A stretch of 64,000 nt of DNA, from contig NZ_QGGX01000002.1 of assembly GCF_003148805.1 (NCBI RefSeq), positions 310,001-374,000 on the forward strand. The letters run 5' to 3'. Source of the stretch: Aminobacter sp. AP02 (GTDB lineage Bacteria; Pseudomonadota; Alphaproteobacteria; Rhizobiales; Rhizobiaceae). The notes beneath the pieces were generated by a model. The model did no database searches. It had not been told where the DNA came from and saw only the letters and a program-made list of their open reading frames with translations. Positions 2 through 12,362 of this stretch are shown one piece after another; position 1 is the first letter of the stretch, and every line of letters begins with the position of its first letter. The translations under genes were made by a program, and so were the position numbers.

Positions 2-2641
2 CGCAAGCTGGTGACCGCCGGCGACTACGCCGCGGCCCTTGAGGTCGCCCGCGACCAGGTCGCCAATGGCGCTCAGATCATCGACATCAACATGGACGAG
101 GGCCTGATCGACTCCAAGAAAGCGATGGTCGAGTATCTCAACCTCATCGCCGCCGAGCCCGACATTGCGCGTGTGCCAGTCATGATCGACAGCTCCAAAT
201 GGGAGGTGATCGAGGCAGGGCTGAAATGCGTCCAGGGCAAGCCGATCGTCAATTCGATCTCGATGAAGGAAGGCGAAGAAGCGTTCCTGCATCACGCCAG
301 GCTTTGCCGGGCCTATGGTGCCGCGGTCGTCGTCATGGCGTTCGACGAGCAGGGCCAGGCCGACACAAAGGCGCGCAAGGTCGAGATCTGTACCCGCGCC
401 TACAAACTGCTCACCGAACAGGCCGGCTTCGCGCCGGAAGACATCATCTTCGACCCCAACATCTTCGCAGTCGCCACCGGCATCGAGGAGCACGACAATT
501 ACGGCGTCGACTTCATCGAGGCGACGCGAGAAATTACGCAGACGCTCCCGCATGTCCATGTATCGGGTGGCGTCTCCAACCTGTCGTTCTCCTTCCGCGG
601 CAACGAGCCGGTTCGCGAAGCGATGCATGCCGTGTTCCTCTATCACTGCATCCAGGCAGGCATGGACATGGGCATCGTCAATGCCGGCCAGCTCGCCGTC
701 TATGAATCGATCGACCCGGAGCTGCGCGAGGCCTGCGAGGACGTCGTGCTCAACCGCGTGCCCAAGGCGGGCGGAACGGCGACCGAGCGGTTGCTGGAGT
801 TGGCGGAGCGCTACAAGGGCACGGCCGGCAAGGAGGCCAAGGAGCGAGACCTCGCCTGGCGCGACTGGCCCGTCGAACAACGCATCAGCCACGCGCTGGT
901 CAACGGCATCACCGAGTTCATCGACGCCGACACGGACGAGGCGCGGCTGAGGGCCGAGCGTCCGCTGCACGTCATCGAAGGCCCGCTGATGGCCGGCATG
1001 AACGTCGTCGGCGATCTTTTTGGCGCCGGCAAGATGTTTTTGCCGCAGGTGGTCAAGTCTGCCCGCGTGATGAAGCAGGCGGTGGCTGGCCTGTTGCCCT
1101 ACATGGAGGCAGAGAAGCTGGCCAATGCCGCCAACGGCATCGACAATGGCGAGCGCCAGAGCGCCGGCAAGATCCTGATGGCGACGGTGAAGGGCGATGT
1201 CCATGACATCGGCAAGAACATCGTCGGCGTCGTGCTTGCCTGCAACAATTACGAGATCATCGACCTCGGCGTCATGGTGCCGGCAACCAAGATCCTGCAG
1301 ATAGCCAGGGAGCAGAAGGTCGATATCATCGGCCTGTCTGGCCTGATCACGCCGTCTCTCGACGAGATGGCGCATGTCGCCGCCGAAATGGAGCGCGAGG
1401 GTTTCGACATTCCGCTTTTGATCGGTGGTGCCACCACCAGCCGCGTGCATACGGCGGTCAAGATCCACCCGCGCTACAACAGCGGCCAGACCGTCTATGT
1501 CACCGACGCCAGCCGCGCGGTGGGCGTGGTGTCGAACCTGTTGTCGCCGGAGGCGAAAGGCGGTTACGTCGAGACCGTCCAGGCCGAATACAAGAAGGTT
1601 GCCGATGCGCACGCGCGATCGGAGGCCGACAAGCAGCGCTTGCCCTTGGCCAAGGCGCGCGCCAATGCGCACAAGGTCGACTGGACGTCCTACGATCCGC
1701 CGAAGCCATCCTTCCTTGGCACCAAGGTGTTCGAGAGCTGGGATCTGGCCGAGCTGGCTCGCTACATCGACTGGACACCGTTCTTCCAGACCTGGGAACT
1801 CAAGGGCCGCTATCCGAAGATTCTCGAGGATGAAGCGCAGGGCCCTGCGGCACGGCAGCTGTTCGAGGACGCGCAGGCGATGCTCAAGAAGATCATCGAC
1901 GAGAAGTGGTTCGCCCCCAAGGCGGTCATCGGCTTTTGGCCGGCCAACGCTGTCGGCGACGATGTCAGGCTATTCAGCGACGATGCGCGCTCGCAGGAAC
2001 TGGCGACCTTGTTCACGCTGCGCCAGCAGCTGACCAAGCGCGACGGCAAGGCCAACATGGCGCTGTCCGACTTCGTCGCCCCGCTCGACAGTGGCAAGCC
2101 GGACTATCTCGGCGGCTTTGTCGTGACCGCCGGCATCGAGGAGGTGGCGATCGCCGAGCGCTTCGAGCGCGCCAATGACGACTATTCCTCGATCATGGTC
2201 AAGGCGCTGGCCGACCGTTTCGCCGAAGCCTTTGCCGAGCGTATGCACGAGAAGGTGCGCACGGAGTTCTGGGGCTACGCGCCTGATGAAAATCTGGCAC
2301 CGGACGATTTGATCGGCGAGCCATATCGCGGCATCCGGCCCGCACCCGGCTATCCCGCCCAGCCTGACCATACCGAGAAGGTGACTTTGTTCCGCCTGCT
2401 CGACGCGGAGAAGAATGCCGGCGTCAGCCTGACCGAAAGTATGGCGATGTGGCCGGGCTCGTCGGTCTCGGGCATCTACCTTGCGCATCCAGAGAGTTAT
2501 TATTTCGGTGTCGCCAAGATCGAGCGCGATCAGGTCGAGGACTATGCCCGGCGCAAGGGTATGACCGTAACCGAGGTCGAACGGTGGCTCGGGCCGATCC
2601 TCAACTACGTGCCCGCGTCGTTTGCCGAAGCAGCCGAGTGA
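2..2641 (+). CDS. metH: Methionine synthase, cobalamin-dependent (5' end outside window)
   Basis: Transfers a methyl group from 5-methyltetrahydrofolate through cobalamin to homocysteine, making methionine in the cytoplasm. The reading frame is already open at base 2, so the N-terminal homocysteine-binding domain and part of the folate domain lie upstream; 879 residues remain, against about 1,230 in the E. coli enzyme. The visible order is folate-binding barrel, helical cap, B12 domain and AdoMet activation domain. The B12 domain has the [10 protein letters not shown] motif whose His (codon 1202-1204) ligates cobalt. The activation domain has [17 protein letters not shown], where E. coli has Cys in place of the Gln. 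The gene ends 270 bp before the Asp-rich cluster with no obvious terminator between. Identification is secure; only the start is missing. Confidence 0.97.
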
Positions 2642-2910
2642 GGCACTGCTTCTGAACTGGCGGTGATCGACGCTTCGTTTTGAGGCCTGATGGGGCTCGC
2701 CGCTCCGCGTCGACGAGGACGTCGGGGTGGCATGCCCGTTTGAGTGCGGCCGATTCGTTGGCCTCGTCATCTCATCCCATCTTGCCGTCTTCGCTTGAGC
2801 GGTTGGCCTCAATGAGTGAGGCCGATACGCCCCGACTTGGTGTCTATCCGTGCTTTTTGGAAGGTGGGATGCTGCTTCACCAGCGGCTGCGCGCACCATG
2901 GAGACGCACG

Positions 2911-3612
2911 ATGGAGCCTGACGAAAAAGTCGAGCGAGACATGATGGCCGACCAGGACGATGCGGACGTCGATGAATCCGGCGATCAAAACGACGACACC
3001 GTTCAGGATGTGGAGGACATCGACCTCGACCTGAAGCAGGACTCCGATATCGACGACGATGTCGACATCGATGTGCTGGTCATAGGTTCGCACCCCGTCA
3101 TCGTCGACCTGGATACCGAAGTCGATCAGAACGGCGAGATGGATCAGGACGCCGATGTCGACAGTGACGCCGACGACGGTGAAGGTTACGACATCGGCAT
3201 TGCGGGTGAGCAAAGACCTGAGGTCGATCAGCGGATCGAGGTCGATGTCGAAGTCAGCGAAGACAGCGACGGCAACATCATCGTCGAGATCGACGCCGAA
3301 GTTGAAGACGATGTCGAGATCGAAAGCGATCTCGACATCGACGTGGATGACGATGACCAAGACAGCATCGATGCCGAACTCGACCAGGACACCGAAACTG
3401 ACGGGAACGTCGATGTCGACATCGAAATCCGCGATGACCTTGATGCCGACGTCGATGTGGACATTGCCTCTCTCATCGACACCTTGGTACGCGGTCTGGT
3501 CGATGTCGAAGAAGACGAGGACGGACCCGATATCGATGTCGACCTGGAAGATGAGGCCGGTGCTGACGCCGACGTCGACATCATCGTCGATCTGACCGAC
3601 ATCGACGCCTGA
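2911..3612 (+). CDS. Asp/Glu-rich repeat protein 1, putative type I secretion cargo
   Basis: A 233-residue protein of unknown function. By count it holds 73 Asp and 26 Glu (42% acidic) and no Cys. Runs such as DIDLDL, DVDIDV and DQDADVD alternate Asp with a hydrophobic or small residue, a pattern that would put all carboxylates on one face of a beta strand. Less acidic stretches (VLVIGSHPVIVDL, GNIIVEIDAEVE) break the repeats. The ATG at 2911 is chosen because GGAGA lies seven bases upstream; the frame is open further upstream (ATG at 2812), but that part is Arg/Pro/Ser-rich with no good ribosome site. The C-terminus is VDLTDIDA, an acidic-hydrophobic tail like those of PrtA-type secretion substrates. 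It shares DQDADxD-type words with the proteins at 3935-4357 and 8221-9267. Export by the neighbouring ABC system is inferred from context. Confidence 0.8.
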   Translation: MEPDEKVERDMMADQDDADVDESGDQNDDTVQDVEDIDLDLKQDSDIDDDVDIDVLVIGSHPVIVDLDTEVDQNGEMDQDADVDSDADDGEGYDIGIAGEQRPEVDQRIEVDVEVSEDSDGNIIVEIDAEVEDDVEIESDLDIDVDDDDQDSIDAELDQDTETDGNVDVDIEIRDDLDADVDVDIASLIDTLVRGLVDVEEDEDGPDIDVDLEDEAGADADVDIIVDLTDIDA

Positions 3613-3934
3613 ATTCCATTCGCCAGGGGCTGAAGATAGCCGAGTTGCCAGTCGGCTGTCGCTGCGCGTCGAATTCAACGCAGGTTCATCCGGATGACCC
3701 GAAGCGGTTCACCTATTCGGGCTACCTCACCGGATCGGGCGAGCCAATTGGTAGCATGGCCGACCCGTTTGGGCATGGTTCATATTGGCGCCTATTCTCC
3801 AAAGCTTTGAACAGGGATGCTTGGCCACATCGATGGATTGTCGCCGGGTCTGACTGACCGTCCCGGTAGCTGTCGATCCGCTCCGGAGGCAAACGCTCGC
3901 CAGGGCGGCTTTGCTCAACAGGGAGGGTAACCCC
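3613..3934. other. Intergenic region between the first two Asp-rich genes
   Basis: I see no convincing gene in these 322 bases. A 70-codon open frame at 3645-3857 has no ribosome site and ordinary non-acidic composition, so I do not call it. The last 15 bases hold a strong ribosome site (GGGAGG at 3921-3926) for the next gene. A promoter for the second gene could lie here, but no clear -35/-10 pair stands out. Confidence 0.5.
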
Positions 3935-4357
3935 ATGGCTGACATCAAAGACAATGATTTTGACATCGACATAGATGCCGACATCGATCAGGACCTCGAC
4001 CAGGACCAAGACCAGGACGTTGACGTCGATACCGACCAGGACTCGGACGTAGATATCGACAACGACAATGACTCGGATGTCGACAACGACACCGACCAAG
4101 ACGCTGACACCGACAACGACGCAGATGCGGACGCGGATGCCGATGCTGACAAAGACAGCGATGCGGACGCCGATGCCGACGCCGACGCCGACGGCGATGC
4201 TGACAATGACAACGACACCGACACCGATGTCACGCAATCCAACGACAACGACGTGGATGTCGATCAGGATCAGGACGTCGACGTGGATGTCGACCAGACT
4301 CAAACGGCTGATCAGGACGCTGACATAGACATCAACTTCGACTTCGACTTCGCTTGA
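3935..4357 (+). CDS. Alternating poly-(Asp-X) protein 2, putative type I secretion cargo
   Basis: A 140-residue protein that is almost entirely D-x-D-x. By count 63 of 140 residues are Asp (45%), occupying nearly every second position from residue 6 to about 118. The alternate residues are A, V, I, T, N, S, Q and G. It has two Lys and no Arg, Glu, His, Cys or Trp. The middle is a (Asp-Ala)n block. The C-terminus changes to INFDFDFA, an aromatic-acidic tail compatible with a PrtA-type type I signal. ATG 3935 is preceded by GGGAGG with good spacing; the frame opens at a TTG at 3911. There is no Sec signal peptide. An 11-bp hairpin follows, then the exporter genes. Known Asp-rich sequences of this kind bind divalent cations or mineral; that role here is inference. 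I recognise no named family. Confidence 0.82.
   Translation: MADIKDNDFDIDIDADIDQDLDQDQDQDVDVDTDQDSDVDIDNDNDSDVDNDTDQDADTDNDADADADADADKDSDADADADADADGDADNDNDTDTDVTQSNDNDVDVDQDQDVDVDVDQTQTADQDADIDINFDFDFA
4118..4204 (+). repeat. Low-complexity GAY-GCN codon repeat inside Asp-rich gene 2
   Basis: The DNA is a run of Asp-Ala codon pairs (GAY GCN), interrupted once by Lys-Asp-Ser and once by Gly. The synonymous codons vary (GAT/GAC, GCA/GCG/GCC/GCT), so it is a protein-level repeat rather than an exact DNA tandem repeat. It could still slip or recombine and change copy number in six-base steps without breaking the frame. Confidence 0.7.
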
Positions 4358-4375
4358 TTGCACTCGATGACATGA

Positions 4376-4400
4376 GGCGCCCGGATTCAATCCGGGCGCC
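4376..4400. terminator. GC-rich hairpin between Asp-rich gene 2 and the exporter
   Basis: A perfect 11-bp stem, GGCGCCCGGAT (4376-4386) with its complement (4390-4400), closes a 3-base loop 18 bases after the stop codon. There is no T-tract, so it is not a canonical intrinsic terminator. It may stabilise the 3' end of the cargo mRNA or reduce read-through into the exporter genes, so that much more cargo than pump is made. That role is inference. Confidence 0.6.
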
Positions 4401-4495
4401 GGCTCGCGCCACCATGGCGGCGAGCCGTGCCGGGCCTGACTTGTACGTGCCGCGGGCACCGGACCTTTCGCTGTGACGCCCTCGCGGAGACATTC

Positions 4496-6313
4496 ATGGC
4501 TCTATCCAAGGACCGAACGATAACCGAAGTCGAACGTGCCTTTCACCGCTGCAGGGCATCGTTGGCGATGGTCTTCGCGCTCAGCTTCTTCGTGAACCTC
4601 CTGGCCCTGACGGTCCCGCTCTACCTCTTGCATGTCTATGATCACGTCCTGTCGAGTCACAGTCTCGATACACTGGTCATGCTGACCTTGATCGTGGTCG
4701 TGGCACTTGCCGTGCATGCCACGCTCGAGGCATTGCGCCGGGCGATGCTCGCCAGGATCGGCGTTTGGCTCGACGATCGGGTCCAGCCGTCGGTCCTCAT
4801 TGCAGCCGTGCAATCGGCCTTGCGCAACGATGCAGCCGCCGCCGCCCAGGCCTGGCGCGACGTCAGCGGCTTGCGCTCGTTTTTCGGCGGTACCGCCAGC
4901 ACATCCCTGTTTGACCTTCCCTGGACGCCAATCTTCATCCTTGCCATGATCCTCGTGCATCCGTTGCTCGGGACAATCGGTCTCGTCGCGTCGCTTATCT
5001 TATTTGGACTGGCGATGCTCAACGAGATGGTGACGCGCAAGCCGTTCGCCCGTGCGAGTGCTGCCTGGGGCGAGAGCCAGCACCGGTTCGAAGCGCTGCT
5101 GCGCAATGTCGAGGCGATCAGCGCCATGGGCATGCTCCCAGGGGTCGCCCGACTCTTGCGCAATGGTCAGGCCGAGGCGAAGGAAGCGCAACTCATCGCC
5201 GCCGCGCGTGCCAGCACCATTCAGGCGGTTGCCCGTTTTGTCCGGCTTTTCGCCCAGGTCATTGTCATGGCCTGCGCTGCCTGGCTAGTGATCTTGAACA
5301 GCGTCAGTCCTGGGGCAATCTTTGCCACGTCGATCCTGCTTGGGCGCTCCCTGGCGCCAGTGGAAGGAGCCATCGGCACCTGGAAAGCCGTTAGCAGTGT
5401 ACGCCTGGGCTATGGCCGCCTGCGCAAGATACTGGCGTCTGCGTCGCAGCCGCGAAAGGCAATGGAGTTGCCGCGCCCCAATGGGCAACTCTCCATCGAA
5501 CAGGTGACGTTCGTGCCGCCCGGAGCGTCCGCGCCGGCGCTGCGGCGGGTAACATTCCTCGTCAACCCGGGAGAAATTCTCGGTGTTGTCGGTCCCTCCG
5601 GTGCTGGGAAGTCGACCCTTGGTCGCCTTATCGCCGGCACGATCGGACCAACAGCGGGGCATGTGCGTCTCGACAATGCCGACATGGAAATCTGGCTGGC
5701 CTCTGGTGGTCACCGCTACTTTGGCTATCTTCCCCAGGATATCGAACTTTTCGGCGGCACGATCAGGGAAAACATCGCCCGCCTGCAGGATGCGTCGGCC
5801 GATGAGGTGATCGCAGCCGCATCAATGGTTGGGCTGCACGAAACGATCATGCGGCTTCCCCTGGGCTACGAAACAGATATCGGCGAGAGCGGCACGAGGC
5901 TGTCGGGCGGGCAGCGCCAGCGGCTCGGCCTGGCGCGCGCATTCTTCGGCCATCCGCGCATCATCGTCCTGGACGAACCGAACGCCAGCCTCGACGCCGA
6001 AGGCGAAGAGGCGCTGCGGGAGGCGATCCAGAACATGAAGGCGCGGGGATCGACGATCATCATCATCGCCCAGCGCCTTCAGATACTTAGCCTGTCCGAC
6101 AAGATCCTGGTCCTCGACAACGGCATGATCAATGCCTTCGGCGACCGCCGGGAGGTCGCTGGCAAGATCAAGAGTGGGCGGACCGCCATTCCGGTCAGGC
6201 GTCCGCAAATCATCACTGCCCGCAAGAGCGTCAAGCAGCTGGGCCACAAGGGCTACCCTGAGATGGCGAATGGGCATGCGTCGGCAGGGGAAGCCGAAAG
6301 AGGCGGGGCATGA
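4496..6313 (+). CDS. Type I secretion ABC exporter (permease/ATPase, PrtD-type)
   Basis: Inner-membrane ABC half-transporter of 605 residues that would power one-step export with a membrane fusion protein and an outer-membrane TolC (none in this window). The order is an N-terminal membrane domain with about six hydrophobic segments (from about residue 22), then the ATPase domain with Walker A GPSGAGKST, Q-loop YLPQD, signature LSGGQRQR and Walker B IIVLDEPN. There is no C39 peptidase-like N-terminal domain, which fits the PrtD/HasD group rather than HlyB. The switch (H-loop) position reads IIIIAQRL, so the conserved His is Gln (codon CAG, 6071-6073). ATG 4496 has GGAGA upstream. The stop overlaps the next gene by four bases, indicating translational coupling. 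Assignment to the class is strong; the cargo is inferred from the flanking Asp-rich genes. Confidence 0.92.
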   Translation: MALSKDRTITEVERAFHRCRASLAMVFALSFFVNLLALTVPLYLLHVYDHVLSSHSLDTLVMLTLIVVVALAVHATLEALRRAMLARIGVWLDDRVQPSVLIAAVQSALRNDAAAAAQAWRDVSGLRSFFGGTASTSLFDLPWTPIFILAMILVHPLLGTIGLVASLILFGLAMLNEMVTRKPFARASAAWGESQHRFEALLRNVEAISAMGMLPGVARLLRNGQAEAKEAQLIAAARASTIQAVARFVRLFAQVIVMACAAWLVILNSVSPGAIFATSILLGRSLAPVEGAIGTWKAVSSVRLGYGRLRKILASASQPRKAMELPRPNGQLSIEQVTFVPPGASAPALRRVTFLVNPGEILGVVGPSGAGKSTLGRLIAGTIGPTAGHVRLDNADMEIWLASGGHRYFGYLPQDIELFGGTIRENIARLQDASADEVIAAASMVGLHETIMRLPLGYETDIGESGTRLSGGQRQRLGLARAFFGHPRIIVLDEPNASLDAEGEEALREAIQNMKARGSTIIIIAQRLQILSLSDKILVLDNGMINAFGDRREVAGKIKSGRTAIPVRRPQIITARKSVKQLGHKGYPEMANGHASAGEAERGGA

Positions 6314-8214
6314 AGCGTCTGAAAGCCGGCGCCAAGAAAGGTGCCAACACTGCAACTACGGTGGACTACGGTGCCGGCCCAAATTGGCAGCCTGCCAAGT
6401 CGCGAGCAGGCCTTTCCAGCATCGTCGCGCGCCTTGCTGCGTTCAAGTCAACGGCGGTGGCAACCGGACAACGCGTTGCCCAGGGAGCCGTCGCCGCATG
6501 GGATAAAGCATCAGCGCGCTTCGTCGCGACATTGAAGGCATGTTCTGGAGCCGCCCGAAGCCTGGCCATGGCATTCTTCGCGGCCATGAAGGCGCCGACG
6601 CAGAGTTCATTCGAGCGGTGCCGCCCCGTTGCCGTAGGAGCTGCTGCCACCACAGGCGGCTTTGCAACCAATTGCAGCGGAACCATCAGGCGACAGCTGG
6701 GCTCTGCCTACAGTTCCCTTGAAGCGTGGCTTTCGTGGACATGGGATGGGCTCACTGTCTTGGCCACGGAGTCTGCATCGTCAGTGGCCTCTAAAACGAC
6801 AGCAAATTTCAATTGGCTTGCCAACACACATCCCTTCGCAAGGTTTCGACAAGAACGCCTCATCGACGCCTCGAACAGGGCCGGCATGTCCGACCTTGCA
6901 ATGGCGCCGATGCTGTCTGCTACGCCGTTTCATCGGCTACGTTACCTCGCCGCGAGCGCGTTTTCGATTGTCGGGGTGTTTGTCGTTGGCTTCGGTGTCT
7001 GGTCGATCTATGCGCCGCTCGAAAGTGCCGCGATTGCCGGGGGAGCCATCGAGGCGGAGTCGAGCCGCAAGACCATCCAGCATCTCGAGGGAGGGATTGT
7101 CGGGCGCATCATGGTGCAGGACGGCGATGTGGTGGCTGCCGGCCAACCCCTCATCGGCCTTGATGACACCAAGGCACGGGCGACCGTCCAGATGCTTCAA
7201 GGACAGTTGTGGGACGCGCAAGCCCTCGAGGCGCGCCTTGTCGCCGAGCGTGACAATCGCGAAACCATCCTGTTTCCAAAAGACATGATGTCGGCCGCTC
7301 AGCGCAATCCAGCGGTGGCGGGGATAATCGTCGCGCAAGACAAGATATTCGATACGCGGCGCAAGCTTCAGGCGTCTCGTATCGAAATCATCGAGCAGCG
7401 CAAGGCACAGACCGAGCAGGAAATCGCGGGCTTACGTTTTCAGGCAAAGGCGGCCGCGACGCGGGCTGCCATCGTCAAGGCAGAAATCGCGGAAGTTGCC
7501 CCACTCGTGGCCAAGCGCCTGCAGACGCGCGCGCGCCTGTTGCAGATTGAACGCGAGCAAGCCGAGATCGACGGACGGATTGGCGACACGATGTCCCAGA
7601 TGTCCCGCGCGGGACAGGCTATTGGCGAGTCGCGGGCGATGATCCTCAAGCTCGAGAGCGACTATCAGACTGAGGTCGCGGAGGATCTTCGCGAGACCCA
7701 GTCCCAGATCCTTCAGCTCGCCGAGCGCTTTCAGGCCGCCAGTGACGTTCTCGCCCGGACGATCGTGCGCGCGCCCGAGGCCGGCACAATCACAGACTTG
7801 CGTATCCACACGACCGGGGGCGTGGTGGCGGCAGGCGAGCCGCTCCTTGATCTTGTCCCCAGTCAGGATCGCCTGATCGTTACGGCCCAGGTCAAGCCGG
7901 AGGATATCGACCTGGTTCATCCCGGTCTCAAGGCGCGCGTGCGCCTGCTTTCCTACAAGCATCGCCGCGTTCCTCCCGTTGAGGGGGTTCTCACCTATGT
8001 CTCAGCCGACCGTCTCATCGACACCGAGACGAAGCGGGCATTTTACACAGCGCGCATCCGCATCACCGAGGCATCGCTTCACGCGCTCCCCGAGGTGGAA
8101 ATCATGGCGGGGATGCCGGTCGAGATATTGATCAACACCGGCACGTTCACCGTCGGCCACTATGCACTCCGTCCCGTTTTCGACAGCTTCAACCGAGCCT
8201 TCAGAGAGGACTGA
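6310..8214 (+). CDS. Type I secretion membrane fusion protein (HlyD/PrtE family) with long basic N-terminal extension
   Basis: Periplasmic adaptor of 634 residues that would link the ABC exporter to an outer-membrane channel. The C-terminal two thirds are typical: one membrane segment (about 212-232), a lipoyl-like half (SSRKTIQHLEGGIVGRI), a long coiled coil (about 270-480), and the beta-barrel/second lipoyl part beginning RAPEAGTITDL. The odd part is the first ~210 residues: the family usually starts 20-50 residues before the membrane helix. By my count this cytoplasmic extension has 26 Lys/Arg against 9 Asp/Glu and is Ala/Ser/Thr-rich. It could bind polyanionic cargo (inference). The ATG at 6310 overlaps the exporter stop, so the start is well placed. 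I cannot exclude a later start, but the frame is continuous and no better ribosome site was seen. Confidence 0.9.
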   Translation: MKRLKAGAKKGANTATTVDYGAGPNWQPAKSRAGLSSIVARLAAFKSTAVATGQRVAQGAVAAWDKASARFVATLKACSGAARSLAMAFFAAMKAPTQSSFERCRPVAVGAAATTGGFATNCSGTIRRQLGSAYSSLEAWLSWTWDGLTVLATESASSVASKTTANFNWLANTHPFARFRQERLIDASNRAGMSDLAMAPMLSATPFHRLRYLAASAFSIVGVFVVGFGVWSIYAPLESAAIAGGAIEAESSRKTIQHLEGGIVGRIMVQDGDVVAAGQPLIGLDDTKARATVQMLQGQLWDAQALEARLVAERDNRETILFPKDMMSAAQRNPAVAGIIVAQDKIFDTRRKLQASRIEIIEQRKAQTEQEIAGLRFQAKAAATRAAIVKAEIAEVAPLVAKRLQTRARLLQIEREQAEIDGRIGDTMSQMSRAGQAIGESRAMILKLESDYQTEVAEDLRETQSQILQLAERFQAASDVLARTIVRAPEAGTITDLRIHTTGGVVAAGEPLLDLVPSQDRLIVTAQVKPEDIDLVHPGLKARVRLLSYKHRRVPPVEGVLTYVSADRLIDTETKRAFYTARIRITEASLHALPEVEIMAGMPVEILINTGTFTVGHYALRPVFDSFNRAFRED

Positions 8215-8220
8215 GGCCAG

Positions 8221-9267
8221 ATGGTTCCCTTCGACAGGGGCACACGTGATCTGTTGCCGCTCTTCGACGCGGGGCCGCGGGAAATCATCGGGGCAGTTTC
8301 GGAGGCCGGTGGTGGCCCTGCCCATGCCGACAAGTTCCCATCTTCGTCAGCTACCTCAAACGTGCATCGGCCTGCCGATCCACCGGCTGCCACGAATGAC
8401 GGCGGTGGAGCGCATGGCACAATGCCGGTCAAGGGATCGTCATTGCCGGCCGCTGCGTCCCATGGCCTGGATGCGTCCGGCAAAGAAGCCGGGGGCCTTC
8501 ACCTCATCACGATTTCCTTGCCTCGCGATTTGCACCCGCCAAAACTTGCCGGCCCTCTCCACTCGGAACCTGGCCGCATTGACGCCCATCACGAAGCAAC
8601 GCAGGGCGACAAGCCCGCACCGGGCACCGATGTAGATGATGCTGCAAACCCCGAACTGGGCGAGCAAGGCAGCGCGTCGGAGGACGGTCACAGCATTCGC
8701 GTGACGCAGTTTGCTGAAGTCGACCAGGACGCCAGTATTATCGTCGAAGGTTATGTCGGCGAGGTCGTCGCGCGGCTGCACATTGACCAGGACCTGATGA
8801 TGGATCAGGACGTGGACATTTCCTTCACCATCGATGGTGAAGGGCGCTTCGCGATCCTGGTGGATCAAGACATGCGGATCGACCAGGACACCCAGATCGA
8901 CGTCGATTTCCATGACGACAAGGGGGTGCTCTACGTCGATGTGTTCCTGCATGATTCCATCACAGTGGAACAGGAAACCGCCGTCGACATGCTGATCAGC
9001 GATGGAGGTGCCGGTGGCACCGTCGACGTGCAACAAGACATCGAGCTTGATCAGGACGTCAACATTGACATCGACATCGAGGACGAACTGGAGGAGCGCT
9101 ATGTCATCACGCTGGACGTTGAAGTCGTTCAGGACGTTGACGCAGCCCAAGACGCTGACGTGGATATCACCGACCGAAATGGCGAGATCGAGATGGACGT
9201 GGATGCCATCCAGACCGCATCGGTCGATCAGGAGATCATTGTACGAGCCGATTTCGCCCTGGCTTAG
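8221..9267 (+). CDS. Asp-rich repeat protein 3, putative type I secretion cargo
   Basis: A 348-residue protein in two parts. Residues 1 to about 155 are Pro/Gly/Ala/His-rich, not especially acidic and probably disordered. Residues ~160-348 carry repeats built on I/VDQDxxID and VDVD words (for example HIDQDLMMDQDVDISF and DQDMRIDQDTQIDVDF) separated by beta-like hydrophobic stretches. It ends VRADFALA, again an Asp followed by hydrophobics at the extreme C-terminus. The ATG lies six bases after the membrane-fusion gene stop, with GAGG five bases upstream, so it belongs to the exporter operon. That operon position is the strongest evidence that this family is the cargo. No Sec signal peptide or membrane helix is visible, and I recognise no named family. 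Confidence 0.82.
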   Translation: MVPFDRGTRDLLPLFDAGPREIIGAVSEAGGGPAHADKFPSSSATSNVHRPADPPAATNDGGGAHGTMPVKGSSLPAAASHGLDASGKEAGGLHLITISLPRDLHPPKLAGPLHSEPGRIDAHHEATQGDKPAPGTDVDDAANPELGEQGSASEDGHSIRVTQFAEVDQDASIIVEGYVGEVVARLHIDQDLMMDQDVDISFTIDGEGRFAILVDQDMRIDQDTQIDVDFHDDKGVLYVDVFLHDSITVEQETAVDMLISDGGAGGTVDVQQDIELDQDVNIDIDIEDELEERYVITLDVEVVQDVDAAQDADVDITDRNGEIEMDVDAIQTASVDQEIIVRADFALA

Positions 9268-9439
9268 GCTGCTCTGGGAATAATCTGGCAGAAGTTATTG
9301 ATATCTATACCATCGTGAGCCGGCTACTTCCCGGGCATTTGTATAAAATATGACCATTTTAACCATATCCTCAATCGCGGGTAGATTAGTGTCGACTAAT
9401 TTGATTATATGTTAGCGGGCGGCAATAACGGGGAAGCGA
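9268..9439 (+). promoter_or_regulatory. AT-rich regulatory region upstream of the LuxR-type gene
   Basis: 172 bases, markedly richer in A/T than the surroundings (especially about 9290-9420), between the last Asp-rich gene and the regulator. It contains ATAAAATATG-like and TTGATTATATGTTAG stretches that could form a promoter, and GGGGAAG just before the TTG start at 9440. No terminator hairpin was found. Such AT-rich upstream DNA in a GC-rich genome often marks a regulated promoter; the exact start site is unknown. Confidence 0.45.
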
Positions 9440-10207
9440 TTGACTATCTCGTTTTCGGCCGAACAGAACGGCTTCGCTCACGAAAGCCCCTCCATAGTCG
9501 TCGTCGACTGCCATCTCCTGTCGCGAAGTTGTCTCGCCAGGATATTTCGTAGCGAGTTCCACGAATTCGCTGTCGTCGAGGTCGAGACCGTGCACCGCTA
9601 TGACACCAGCATGGCCGGCAGGCAGGTCTCGCTCGTCAGTCTCAACATACAGGGCTGCGCGATGACGGACATGCGTGTGATCGAGTGTCTCGCACACCTT
9701 CGTCAGATGCTTCCTGATGCTCCTACGGTGCTTCTCACGCAACTCGATGAATCAACAATCTCTGATGCCACGATCTCCGAAGTAACCCGATATGGCGTCC
9801 GAGGCTATATTACCGCTTCCGCCTCCATCGAGATCGCTCTTGCTGCGGTTCGGCTGGTCATGGCGGGGGGCGTCTACTTTCCACGGTCAGTGCCGACGGA
9901 TTGCGCGAACGCGGCACCCGCGCAGGTCGAAAACATCTTCGCCTTGCAGCCGCTACCTGCCCTGAACGGCATGGCTACGGATCTTCCCGCCAGCACCGGC
10001 CGTACCGACGTCGCATTCACCGAACGAGAGCGTCAAGTGCTGGCGACCTTGTTGCGGGGCCTTTCGAACAAGGTCATAGCGAGCGAGTTGAATCTGTCGC
10101 AGAACACCGTCAAATCACACGTATCGCATATCATGCGAAAGCTGCATGCGACCAACCGAACCGAGGCAGTCGTTCTTTCTCAATACAACGGCCCAGCCAC
10201 GGCGTAG
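9440..10207 (+). CDS. LuxR-family transcription regulator with degenerate receiver domain
   Basis: A 255-residue protein of NarL/FixJ architecture. Residues ~17-140 form a receiver-like domain and ~196-250 a LuxR helix-turn-helix (FTERERQVLATLLRGLSNK, then NTVKSHVSHIMRKL). The receiver lacks key residues: the strand that should end in the phosphorylated Asp reads VSLVSLNIQG, with Ser at about residue 67, and the conserved Lys region reads RGYITASAS. Only one Asp of the usual acidic pocket remains (VVVDCH). It should therefore not be switched by ordinary phosphotransfer, and no partner kinase lies nearby. The TTG start at 9440 is favoured by the GGGGAAG ribosome site; no early in-frame ATG keeps the domain whole. 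Its position suggests it controls the Asp-rich/type I locus (inference). Confidence 0.85.
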   Translation: MTISFSAEQNGFAHESPSIVVVDCHLLSRSCLARIFRSEFHEFAVVEVETVHRYDTSMAGRQVSLVSLNIQGCAMTDMRVIECLAHLRQMLPDAPTVLLTQLDESTISDATISEVTRYGVRGYITASASIEIALAAVRLVMAGGVYFPRSVPTDCANAAPAQVENIFALQPLPALNGMATDLPASTGRTDVAFTERERQVLATLLRGLSNKVIASELNLSQNTVKSHVSHIMRKLHATNRTEAVVLSQYNGPATA

Positions 10208-10352
10208 GGAAATAGACCACGTCGGAGTGGCACTCTCATTGCGTTCCACCCGGGTTGCAGCCGTCGCGCGGACGGGCTGAAACGCTTCATGCCGTGGCGC
10301 GGCATCGCTATTCGACGTCTATTTAGTTTTCGACGCACATCGGCACGCGTCC

Positions 10353-12044
10353 TTACTCGTCGAACATCTTGTCGGGATCGTAGACCGGCTGACCCTGCAG
10401 CAACGTTGCCACGACTTTCGCCTTGCCGACTTGTTTGATCGGAATTGCCGTGATGTCGCGGTCAATCACCACGATATCGGCGAATTTGCCGACCTCGATC
10501 GAGCCGGTGGTCTTCTCCTGGTGCAGCAGCCGAGCCGGGTTGATCGTCATCCACTCGATGGCAGTGGCGACGTCCGGCGCACCGTCGGCCTTGCGCGAAA
10601 CGGCCGCCTGGATCTTGACCAGCGGCGACAACTCGTCAGCGTCGAAATCGCTGCTCATCACCACCTCCGCGCCCATCGCCGCAAGCGTGCCGGCAGGCAT
10701 CATGTGATCGGCCCGGTCGCCGATGAACTGGCGGATGAACTTGTTGTATTCGGGATCGAGCGAACTCGGGGCGAGCTGGAAATCGGCGACCGCGCCCAAC
10801 TCCTTGAACCGGGGATAGTCCGCCTTGTCGAGCAGATAGAGATGGGTCAGGCGATGCGGTCCCGGCTTGGGGTCGGACCGTACGATGGCGTCGAGCGCGA
10901 GGCGCGCGCCGCGATCAGCCGTGACGTGATAGTGCAACTGGAAGCCCGCCTTCGACAGCTCCCTGGAGTAGCGGTCCAGCGTGTCGACATCGAAGTACAG
11001 GAAGCCGCTGTCGTAGCCATGGTCGATGCCGGCGCCCTTGAGGTAGGGGCGCAGTACCGCGCCGGTGCGTTGTTCGAGAATGCCGTCGACATAGATCTTT
11101 GCCTGGTTGAAGCGCAGCAGGCTGGTCGGGTCGTTCGAGTACAGTTTCTTCAGCGATGCCATCTGCTCGTCGAACGGCAGGTCCGGGTAGACATAGAGCG
11201 CGTTCGACGCGCGCACCGCCAGCGTGTCGTTGGCCAGGGCCTTCTGCCAGGCCTTGATGTGCCCCTGAGGCCAGAACCCGCCGGCGTCGCTGACCGAGGT
11301 GATGCCGTTCTCGGCGACCGTCTCCAGCGTCGGCAAGAGGCTCTCATAACCGAATTCGACATTGTCAGGCGTGTCGGGAAAGGCGAGGTTGCTCAGCTTC
11401 TGCTGCGCGTTCTCCAGCACCACGCCGTTGGGCTTGCCGGTCTTGGCATCGCGCAAGATGATGCCGCCGGGCGGATCTTCGGCCAAGGGGTCATAGCCTG
11501 CTGCACGCATCGCCACGGAATTCGCCCAGGCGCCGTGCCCGATGTCGTCGAGGATGAGCACCGGCCTGTCAGGCGAGATCTTGTCCAGAAGCGCAATCGG
11601 GTTGTCGCTCTGGTCGAGCAGATTGGTCATGCTGACGCCGGAGCCCAGCACCCATTCGGTCTTGCTGGTCTTCATGCAATCCTTGACCGTGGCAAGGGTG
11701 TCGTCGAGCTTGTCGAACGGTTCGAACTCGCAGAGGATCTCGTTCACGCCGGCTTCGACCAGGTGCATGTGGGCATCCTGGAATCCGGGTAGGACCATCA
11801 TGCCCTTGAGGTCGACGACATCGGCGTCTTCTCCGGCGGCAGCCAGCGCCTCTTTTTCCGAACCCACGGCCAGGATCACGCCGTCATCTTCGATGGCAAC
11901 CGCCTCTGCCTGTGGCGAACTCCGGTTGACGGTGTGAACCTTGGCGTTGGTGAGAACCATGGGCTTTGCCCAGGCTGCCGATGTCGTGGCCACGCCACCG
12001 GCAAGAACAGCTGCCAGCAAAGTCTTGGCGCCGTTGAATCTCAT
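10353..12044 (-). CDS. Exported amidohydrolase, YtcJ-like
   Basis: A 563-residue metal-dependent hydrolase of the amidohydrolase superfamily (amidohydrolase 3/YtcJ group); the substrate is unknown. The start at 12044 is set by GGAGAACGACAG upstream and gives a clear signal peptide: MRFNGAK, a hydrophobic core and SAAWA-KP, so it should act in the periplasm. The metal-binding motif GFQDAHMHL follows the N-terminal beta sandwich. Further ligands are likely in QLHYHVTADRGA (about residue 350) and SSDFDADEL near the C-terminus. The product ends with the usual composite-domain return ITGSIEVGKFADIVVIDRD-like strand. It is convergent with the LuxR-type gene and upstream of nothing obviously related. 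A frame opening 18 codons earlier lacks a ribosome site. Confidence 0.88.
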   Translation of the reverse strand: MRFNGAKTLLAAVLAGGVATTSAAWAKPMVLTNAKVHTVNRSSPQAEAVAIEDDGVILAVGSEKEALAAAGEDADVVDLKGMMVLPGFQDAHMHLVEAGVNEILCEFEPFDKLDDTLATVKDCMKTSKTEWVLGSGVSMTNLLDQSDNPIALLDKISPDRPVLILDDIGHGAWANSVAMRAAGYDPLAEDPPGGIILRDAKTGKPNGVVLENAQQKLSNLAFPDTPDNVEFGYESLLPTLETVAENGITSVSDAGGFWPQGHIKAWQKALANDTLAVRASNALYVYPDLPFDEQMASLKKLYSNDPTSLLRFNQAKIYVDGILEQRTGAVLRPYLKGAGIDHGYDSGFLYFDVDTLDRYSRELSKAGFQLHYHVTADRGARLALDAIVRSDPKPGPHRLTHLYLLDKADYPRFKELGAVADFQLAPSSLDPEYNKFIRQFIGDRADHMMPAGTLAAMGAEVVMSSDFDADELSPLVKIQAAVSRKADGAPDVATAIEWMTINPARLLHQEKTTGSIEVGKFADIVVIDRDITAIPIKQVGKAKVVATLLQGQPVYDPDKMFDE

Positions 12045-12272: not shown

Positions 12273-12362
12273 TGGCGGAGAGGGAGGGATTCGAACCCCC
12301 GATGGGCTTGCACCCATGCCGCATTTCGAGTGCGGTGCATTCGACCACTCTGCCACCTCTCC
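12273..12362 (-). tRNA. tRNA-Ser (anticodon CGA)
   Basis: Read on the minus strand, the 90-base gene starts GGAGAGGTGGCAGAGTGG and ends in CCTCTCC-G-CCA, with the CCA encoded. The acceptor stem GGAGAGG pairs perfectly with CCTCTCC. The anticodon arm is CCGCA-CTCGAAA-TGCGG, giving anticodon CGA (reads UCG). A long variable arm, as expected for serine tRNA, and a GGTTCGAATCC T-arm are present. No integrated element is seen at its 3' end in this window. Confidence 0.97.

Follow-up and report, generated by a model that had tools for sequence, protein, structure and literature searches.

Here, we describe a block of five genes in a 64,000-nucleotide stretch (the window) of the genome of Aminobacter sp. 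AP02 (contig NZ_QGGX01000002.1, positions 310,001 to 374,000 of the forward strand). The genes lie head to tail at 2911-9267, all on the + strand, and encode two acidic proteins (A and B), an ATP-binding cassette (ABC) exporter, its adaptor or membrane fusion protein (MFP), and a further Asp-rich protein (C). Judged by its sequences, the block is a type I secretion cassette in kind, with an unusual cargo; it is real, conserved and under-described. Its features are listed below.

2837..2847, + strand: promoter-like motif TTGGYNNCTAT, 74 bp 5′ of A
2911..3612, + strand: A, 233-residue acidic protein (open reading frame, ORF; 73 Asp, net charge -92)
3785..3795, + strand: promoter-like motif TTGGYNNCTAT, 150 bp 5′ of B
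3935..4357, + strand: B, 140-residue (Asp-X)n protein (ORF; 63 Asp, 12 Gln)
4376..4400, + strand: conserved RNA stem-loop, 18 nt 3′ of the B stop codon, with no T run after it
4496..6313, + strand: PrtD-type type I secretion ABC exporter (TIGR01842 above cut-off; match to structure 5l22)
6310..8214, + strand: HlyD-type adaptor (MFP) with an N-terminal extension of ~190 residues (TIGR01843 above cut-off)
8221..9267, + strand: C, 348 residues, with a short N-terminal GTRDLLP element, a variable linker and a repeat domain
8689..9261, + strand: repeat domain of C, residues 157-347, with seven ~27-residue repeats, six of them with Q-x5-Q
9440..10207, + strand: LuxR-type gene 3′ of C, encoding a GerE helix-turn-helix and a degenerate receiver-like N-terminus

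This layout agrees with an earlier note on this DNA, which had placed two Asp-rich genes 5′ of the pump pair and one 3′, with a 4-base overlap between the pump genes (4496-6313 and 6310-8214), a 6-base gap before the third cargo gene (the MFP gene ends at 8214 and C starts at 8221), and 63 Asp among the 140 residues of B. The LuxR-type gene, the motifs at 2837 and 3785 and the hairpin at 4376-4400 apparently belong to the unit as well.

The block is rare, and wherever C is found the block is whole. A profile of C identifies the gene in 8 of 394 genomes sampled in the family (6 of 109 genera), and a search of a single genus (2 of 16 genomes) yields a ninth, G1154, with the same block as the others. 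C is present in 2 of 10 genomes of the window's genus, G004 being among that genus, and in 2 of 3 genomes of another genus; the distribution is patchy. All nine genomes with C have the order A-B-ABC-MFP-C, in the same orientation in the seven family relatives checked. A LuxR-type gene follows C in eight of the nine blocks, within about 0.2 kb in seven and at about 1 kb in L022; at L024, the sequence reads N from inside this gene onward. That gene aside, flanking ORFs of at least 150 residues (for the window, those in its first 20 kb) are not common to the blocks at a blastp E of 1e-15, except in the sister genomes L022 and L023 and at L020 and L042, which share two ORF pairs (27% and 45% identity). 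An intact block with differing flanks argues for a unit rather than a shared neighbourhood. The earlier note had asked whether homologues of the cargo mostly lie away from type I exporters, which would have spoken against it; this was not the case, as all nine blocks are intact and, of four additional, weak B-like places, three have another PrtD/HlyD pair alongside. Comparison of the loci gives good support to the claim that exporter and acidic proteins form one set. In wider samples, in which the best 5-7 candidates were scored per genome, the C profile found only the window's own genome among 397 genomes of the order and among 349 of the phylum, two samples that share genomes, and the B profile found only that genome among 385 of the class. 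Carriage of the cargo on plasmids or viruses was considered and set aside: a tblastn search with A, B and C gave no match in 72,556 plasmid records, a negative that the low-complexity filter weakens, most of all for B, and nothing matching C was found in viral contigs.

The pump itself is of a familiar type. The ABC protein scores 624.7 bits against TIGR01842 (PrtD-type; cut-off 510.15) and the adaptor 356.7 bits against TIGR01843 (HlyD-type; cut-off 208.65), as expected for the type I exporter pair that had been proposed, and the ABC protein matches the PrtD structure 5l22 with an E of 2.8e-115. With both proteins above these curated cut-offs, the block resembles PrtD/PrtE systems; it differs from them in that its cargo is not a recognised RTX protein. 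Two TolC-type channels (TIGR01844 matches above cut-off) are encoded in the window's genome, on contigs C15 and C1, and there is no such match on C2, the window's contig, so the outer membrane partner would lie outside the block. Identity to the window exporter is 70-89% for seven block exporters, and 40% and 38% for the two further PrtD proteins of the window's genome that exceed the cut-off. In a tree, the block exporters group closely; the three outside rows form long branches, for which false joins are possible, and we therefore judge relatedness by identities instead. As described in the portions of PMC8277102 used here, the channel of the PrtD class is thought to pass unfolded chains, and its cytosolic side has a basic bowl. 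Two entry-window features described there, Trp296 and Arg308, are invariant in all 10 aligned exporters. The FxT motif of the third transmembrane helix, taken from the same portions, is absent from the 8 aligned block exporters, where Thr is replaced by Gly, Ala or Ser; this loss does not mark the block exporters, since Thr is also missing in the genome's two other PrtD proteins. The adaptor gene begins with an Ala-rich N-terminal extension of ~190 residues (window 6310-6900). Such an extension is seen in 4 of 8 aligned adaptors, the window's included, with strongly differing sequences; at the other four loci it is the exporter ORF, not the adaptor, that has the long N-terminus, and start codons are uncertain.

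Among the cargo proteins, alternation of Asp is most pronounced in B. The pattern D-x-D (x not D) occurs 58 times in B, against a mean of 15.5 and a maximum of 29 in 2000 composition-preserving shuffles per protein, 32 times in A (mean 15.6, maximum 27) and 14 times in C (mean 6.5, maximum 15), the last being a modest excess. The longest strict D-x run spans 94 residues in B, 11 in A and 6 in C. The initial description of all three as dominated by alternating Asp therefore holds strictly for B and partly for A, and not for C, which has 52 Asp in 348 residues and an ordinary Pro/Ala/Gly-rich stretch over its first ~150. A shared word of the DQDADxD type was likewise overstated, occurring once in A, twice in B and nowhere in C; counts of plain DQD are 4, 7 and 6, respectively. 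In the window copy of B, the X residues are Ala (10), Gln (9), Val (8), Asn (7), Ile (5), Thr (4) and others (5), over 48 columns. B carries a net charge of -61 in 140 residues, has no hydrophobic 19-residue window (maximum -0.53), and ranges from 128 to 201 residues across the 9 loci, with starts chosen. None of the three proteins has a strongly hydrophobic N-terminus (maximum 11-residue hydropathy in the first 40 residues: -0.45 for A, -0.17 for B, 0.99 for C) or matches a Pfam family at an E of 0.1. Val/Ile-rich antisense ORFs opposite B and A are a mechanical complement of the GAY codons. The N-terminal element of C, GTRDLLP at residues 7-13 (8239-8259), precedes the variable linker; GTRDLL is kept in 7 of 8 aligned rows, L024 having GERELL. 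This element is perhaps an anchor.

Simple pairwise estimates of the ratio of nonsynonymous to synonymous substitution (dN/dS), made for A, B and C only and rough because dS often exceeds 1, give 0.02-0.05 for B between the window and four relatives (4 of 7 pairs; the other three are saturated at silent sites), 0.12-0.35 for A (7 of 7 pairs) and 0.23-0.41 for C (6 of 7 pairs; one saturated). By this measure, B is under very strong purifying selection and is not drifting simple sequence; neither of the other two cargo genes compared is as constrained. The constraint falls unevenly. Over 8 aligned rows each, Gln is invariant at 11 of 12 positions in B, versus 20 of 63 for Asp, and at 11 of 17 positions in C, versus 12 of 50 for Asp; in A the figures are 4 of 8 for Gln, 18 of 63 for Asp and 10 of 23 for Glu. 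Among the common residues of B and C, Gln is thus the most constrained in these alignments. Similarly, the non-Asp track of B is invariant at 29 of 48 columns and the Asp track at 20 of 53 (p 0.03).

In C, the Gln residues are also regularly spaced. The motif Q-x5-Q occurs 6 times versus 0.78 expected, a count reached in 0 of 5000 shuffles, and successive Gln pairs lie 26-32 residues apart, the fourth repeat being without its first Gln. Each of the 8 C proteins has 5 or 6 such pairs, and A has three (0.37 expected; 20 of 5000 shuffles reach three). In an AlphaFold model of C, built from only two aligned sequences, each of the seven repeats is drawn as a strand of 23-26 residues. Faces were assigned from the Gln positions and this model, the confidence of which is low. 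Of the residues on the Gln face, 75% are hydrophobic, 15% Gln/Asn and 4% acidic, and acids make up 49% of the opposite face; invariant columns number 40 of 85 on the Gln face versus 14 of 87 on the acidic face (Fisher p 1.5e-5). On these modelled strands, the residue pattern of C is two-faced. As the acidic positions vary more in both B and C, the opposite positions make the better signature of these proteins. A profile comparison of A with C gives a probability of 95.6% (E 1.3e-8, 172 columns), a score that biased composition may inflate, and A and C probably share a domain. The C profile finds nothing above chance among solved structures (best E 0.36). Long-strand pores and barrels are many of the 50 Foldseek rows listed for the C model, and their TM-scores (≤0.14) are meaningless at this model confidence.

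The putative control elements recur with the genes. TTGGYNNCTAT has only 2 matches in the 64 kb, both strands included, against an expectation of 0.16; two or more matches arose in 2 of 100 shuffles. Across the 18 regions upstream of A and B at the nine loci, the motif is found exactly in 14 and with at most one mismatch in 17; the remaining region, that of A in L042, had been bounded by a wrong start, and an exact match lies at L042:4546. One hundred shuffled motifs searched against the same 18 regions average 0.07 exact matches (maximum 1) and 1.53 at up to one mismatch (maximum 7). An ATGCT element downstream is also common, and a search for sigma-70 promoters returned 0 in 2600-9500. The stem-loop, a strong one, lies 16-18 bases 3′ of the B stop codon at all nine loci. 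In its alignment, 96.7% of 90 cells are paired; the outermost pair is GC in 7 sequences, AU in 1 and CG in 1, both sides having changed twice, two sequences lack one inner pair, and one lacks the innermost. The covariation score is reached by 6 of 500 shuffles. With no T run 3′ of it, the hairpin is not a standard terminator. In other operons, a hairpin may protect or over-represent a message. By analogy, this stem-loop may protect or over-represent the message of B.

The LuxR-type protein scores 74.1 bits for GerE; a Response_reg match reaches only E 0.0065, below the Pfam cut-off, and residues 19-151, its receiver part, match 2qsj (E 1.6e-4). Its matches to VpsT and CsgD cover the helix-turn-helix only. 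At the column taken as the likely phosphoacceptor position of the receiver part, Asn is found in 6 of 7 relatives and Asp in 1. Autoregulation of this gene through TTGGYNNCTAT is not supported: of 8 loci, just the window has a site, and that site has one mismatch. Further along, a tRNA-Ser (CGA) gene lies at 12273-12362 on the minus strand, about 2-3 kb from the block.

The B profile leads to a second group of loci. Among 374 family genomes, 11 have a match, namely the eight block genomes and three weak ones (E 1e-4 to 3e-6); G118 also has a second place, making four additional places in all. Three of these (L058, L059, L061) lie beside another PrtD/HlyD pair and a LuxR-type gene, while the contig of the fourth, 3.9 kb long, runs out first. 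The B-like match at these places could be compositional, yet the three testable cases adjoin the same kind of exporter. Their architecture consists of a LuxR-type gene, a cargo of 578-630 residues, a protein of 666-684 residues, PrtD and HlyD (L040, L058, L059); L061 has the same architecture, with the second gene not resolved. L040 is in the window's own genome, at C6:94000-112000, with the sister genes at 2138-11583 of that stretch. The cargo proteins of L058, L059 and L061 (578-603 residues) carry stretches of alternating acidic residues close to the N-terminus and are Gly-rich beyond them. The 630-residue protein beside the C6 PrtD shows an Asn/Glu/Lys alternation and matches parts of those cargo proteins at 51-74% over 58-117 residues. 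At L040, L058 and L059, neither the cargo nor the second protein (six proteins in all) has a Pfam family at an E of 0.01. Thus, the sister architecture is like the block in its PrtD/HlyD pair, its nearby LuxR-type gene and the alternating charged or polar N-terminal stretch of its cargo; it is unlike the block in its long Gly-rich cargo, in its different second protein without a Pfam match, in its exporter (38-40% identical to the window's) and in lacking TTGGYNNCTAT. It looks like a second PrtD-linked cargo system without a name, as far as gene content goes. The window's genome probably also has a classical RTX-like type I secretion system (T1SS), at L041 (C1:72000-90000), where a TolC-type channel, an HlyB-like ABC protein and HlyD accompany a very long ORF that extends past the end of the stretch; this ORF is probably a 5055-residue open frame with PF00353 matches at C1:95830-97233.

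How does the block compare with systems already described? The nearest precedent is BapA of Paracoccus denitrificans, for which, with BapBCD, the reference is reportedly Yoshida et al. 2017. According to the portions of PMC5588039 used here, BapA is a protein of 2,211 residues with 891 Asp-Ala repeats, encoded beside a T1SS with a linked channel gene, bapD; it is a predicted T1SS substrate needed for attachment, Ca2+ stimulates attachment and biofilm formation, mutants without BapA or its exporter have a severe attachment defect, and its authors speculate on nucleation of calcium mineral. The claim that no family had been described with this pattern and exporter must therefore be dropped, on the strength of those same portions. 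In the literature searched, mainly outside subscription journals, BapA is the only precedent for an Asp-dipeptide T1SS substrate among the matches listed. As far as those portions go, the likeness lies in a long stretch with Asp at every other position (the run of 94 in B) and in location beside a type I exporter; B adjoins its exporter in all nine blocks, with shorter D-x runs in several. The likeness is by description only, and the differences are considerable. The block has three small proteins rather than one giant; the X of B is varied (Ala, Gln, Val, Asn, Ile), unlike that of BapA, which is essentially Ala; and, where BapA has the linked bapD, the channel gene of the block is elsewhere, and the block has a LuxR-type gene, a motif and a hairpin. 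RTX proteins are similar in their T1SS link and Asp richness; membership of that family was rejected, as A, B and C contain no GGxGxD and have no PF00353 match. Staphylococcal Ser-Asp repeat (MSCRAMM) proteins share a dipeptide repeat composition and account for weak NCBIfam scores of A and B, but the scores (13-49 bits versus cut-offs of 999-2500, and similar for the aligned A proteins) are compositional. Likewise, a curli-type amyloid was set aside, there being no Pfam curlin match for A, B, C, the 8 aligned C or the 8 aligned B.

We think it fairly probable, though well short of certain, that A, B and C serve this pump as its dedicated type I substrates and, once secreted, come together as a matrix or adhesin. 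Export of all three would run through the PrtD-type ABC protein, the HlyD-type adaptor and an outer membrane channel encoded elsewhere. In the cytosol, the chains would stay unfolded and soluble because they are so acidic, and such chains would suit an exporter path with a basic bowl. Outside, divalent cations would screen the acidic positions, so that the residues on the other side of the chain (Gln, Val, Ile, Ala, Asn) could pack; long two-faced beta strands would then build up a surface layer, matrix or adhesin. By analogy with BapA, the most likely end product is a surface matrix or adhesin. B, the best conserved and the one with a 3′ hairpin, would be the main building block and is probably the most abundant, the hairpin allowing B to be made in excess of the pump. 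Accessory or anchoring roles would fall to A and C, which seemingly have a domain in common. A and B would share one control element, with the LuxR-type protein as its likely regulator.

Several observations weigh against this reading, or against parts of it. In A, the acids are invariant at 27 of 83 positions, hydrophobic residues and Gln at 15 of 79 and others at 6 of 36, the opposite trend to B and C. The B proteins of L022, L023 and L024 no longer have Asp at 20-23 of the 63 Asp columns; Lys is found at window-B Asp columns 12, 10 and 8 times, respectively, and Tyr 4, 3 and 7 times, and the charge per 100 residues moves from about -44 to about -20. A strict polyanion is evidently not required. 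Together with the lesser conservation of the acidic face of C, these losses also leave unsupported the proposal that a strictly alternating Asp face is the conserved feature; of the related idea, that an Asp face stands in place of GGxGxD, the absence of that motif from A, B and C holds, and conservation of the Asp face is not supported. The structural models offer little help: that of C has a mean pLDDT of 42.6 (42-65 by ten-residue block in the repeat part) and no PDB match in Foldseek at E ≤ 0.001, and that of A, at a mean of 36.6, is uninformative. Profile comparison of B with C gives a probability of 12%, not a convincing match, so the three proteins cannot be called one family on this evidence. 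As for control, the stem-loop covariation comes from one pair, so the case for the hairpin lies mainly in its conservation and fold energy, and neither an Rfam scan nor a terminator scan names it. The regulatory role of the LuxR-type protein, which we consider likely, is suggested only by its position; at 7 of 8 loci TTGGYNNCTAT does not occur within 350 bp 5′ of the LuxR-type gene, even at one mismatch, and L019 has no LuxR-type gene in 4.5 kb downstream.

Some of these observations might be expected if the proteins were simple polyanions, secreted but remaining unfolded, and serving as an extracellular cation sponge or a mineral-nucleating polymer, as discussed for BapA and aspein. The net charge of B and its want of any hydrophobic window fit such a polymer, acids are the better conserved class in A, and the speculation on calcium mineral in PMC5588039, in the portions used here, is in the same vein. 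However, the exact sequence of B is strongly constrained, as its dN/dS in the four unsaturated pairs and its near-invariant Gln show, which one would not expect of a plain polyanion; Lys and Tyr replace Asp in the B of three relatives, and the modelled strand pattern of C is two-faced; we regard this explanation as unlikely. Slightly less so, if still doubtful, is the notion of shortened RTX- or BapA-like adhesins, bound to the cell surface, in which an Asp-rich part has taken the place of the RTX part. The exporter class and the idea of the composition are as in BapA, so far as the cited portions describe it, and a Gly/Asp-rich protein with five GGxGxD string matches lies beside the C6 PrtD of the same genome; set against these are the absence of GGxGxD and of any Pfam domain from A, B and C, and the small size of the cargo (140-348 residues), which has no recognised ligand-binding or extender domain. 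Finally, A, B and C might not be exported at all and might instead remain in the cytosol, where they would help some other substrate of the pump as chaperones or charge buffers. No export signal has been demonstrated for them, but, besides the LuxR-type gene, only A, B and C recur beside the pump in all nine blocks (among flanking ORFs of the size compared), and in the window C starts 6 bases after the adaptor gene; we consider this reading very improbable.

The preferred reading, secreted substrates that assemble outside the cell, may be extended in a way that we put forward only tentatively, as a minority view of our own: that the block encodes a charge-gated matrix of secreted, two-faced beta-strand proteins that form a new class, is a mobile, self-regulated kit for making this matrix, and represents one branch of a wider PrtD-linked group of alternating-charge cargo. 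The Gln-studded, non-acidic face would here be the conserved assembly surface, and the acidic face would act as a solubility brake, keeping the chains export-competent inside and being released by extracellular divalent cations. The group would include the sister loci and, by convergence, BapA.

The block is a small version of the BapA problem, namely how a protein that is nearly half Asp makes cells stick. Its low-complexity cargo has no family in the Pfam version searched and only compositional NCBIfam matches, yet B is the most constrained of its cargo genes, and the natural Lys and Tyr variants separate charge from pattern. If the proposed reading is true, one cassette would hold the pump, the building blocks and the control for an extracellular protein material, with ions, and not a chaperone or nucleator, as the switch for its assembly.

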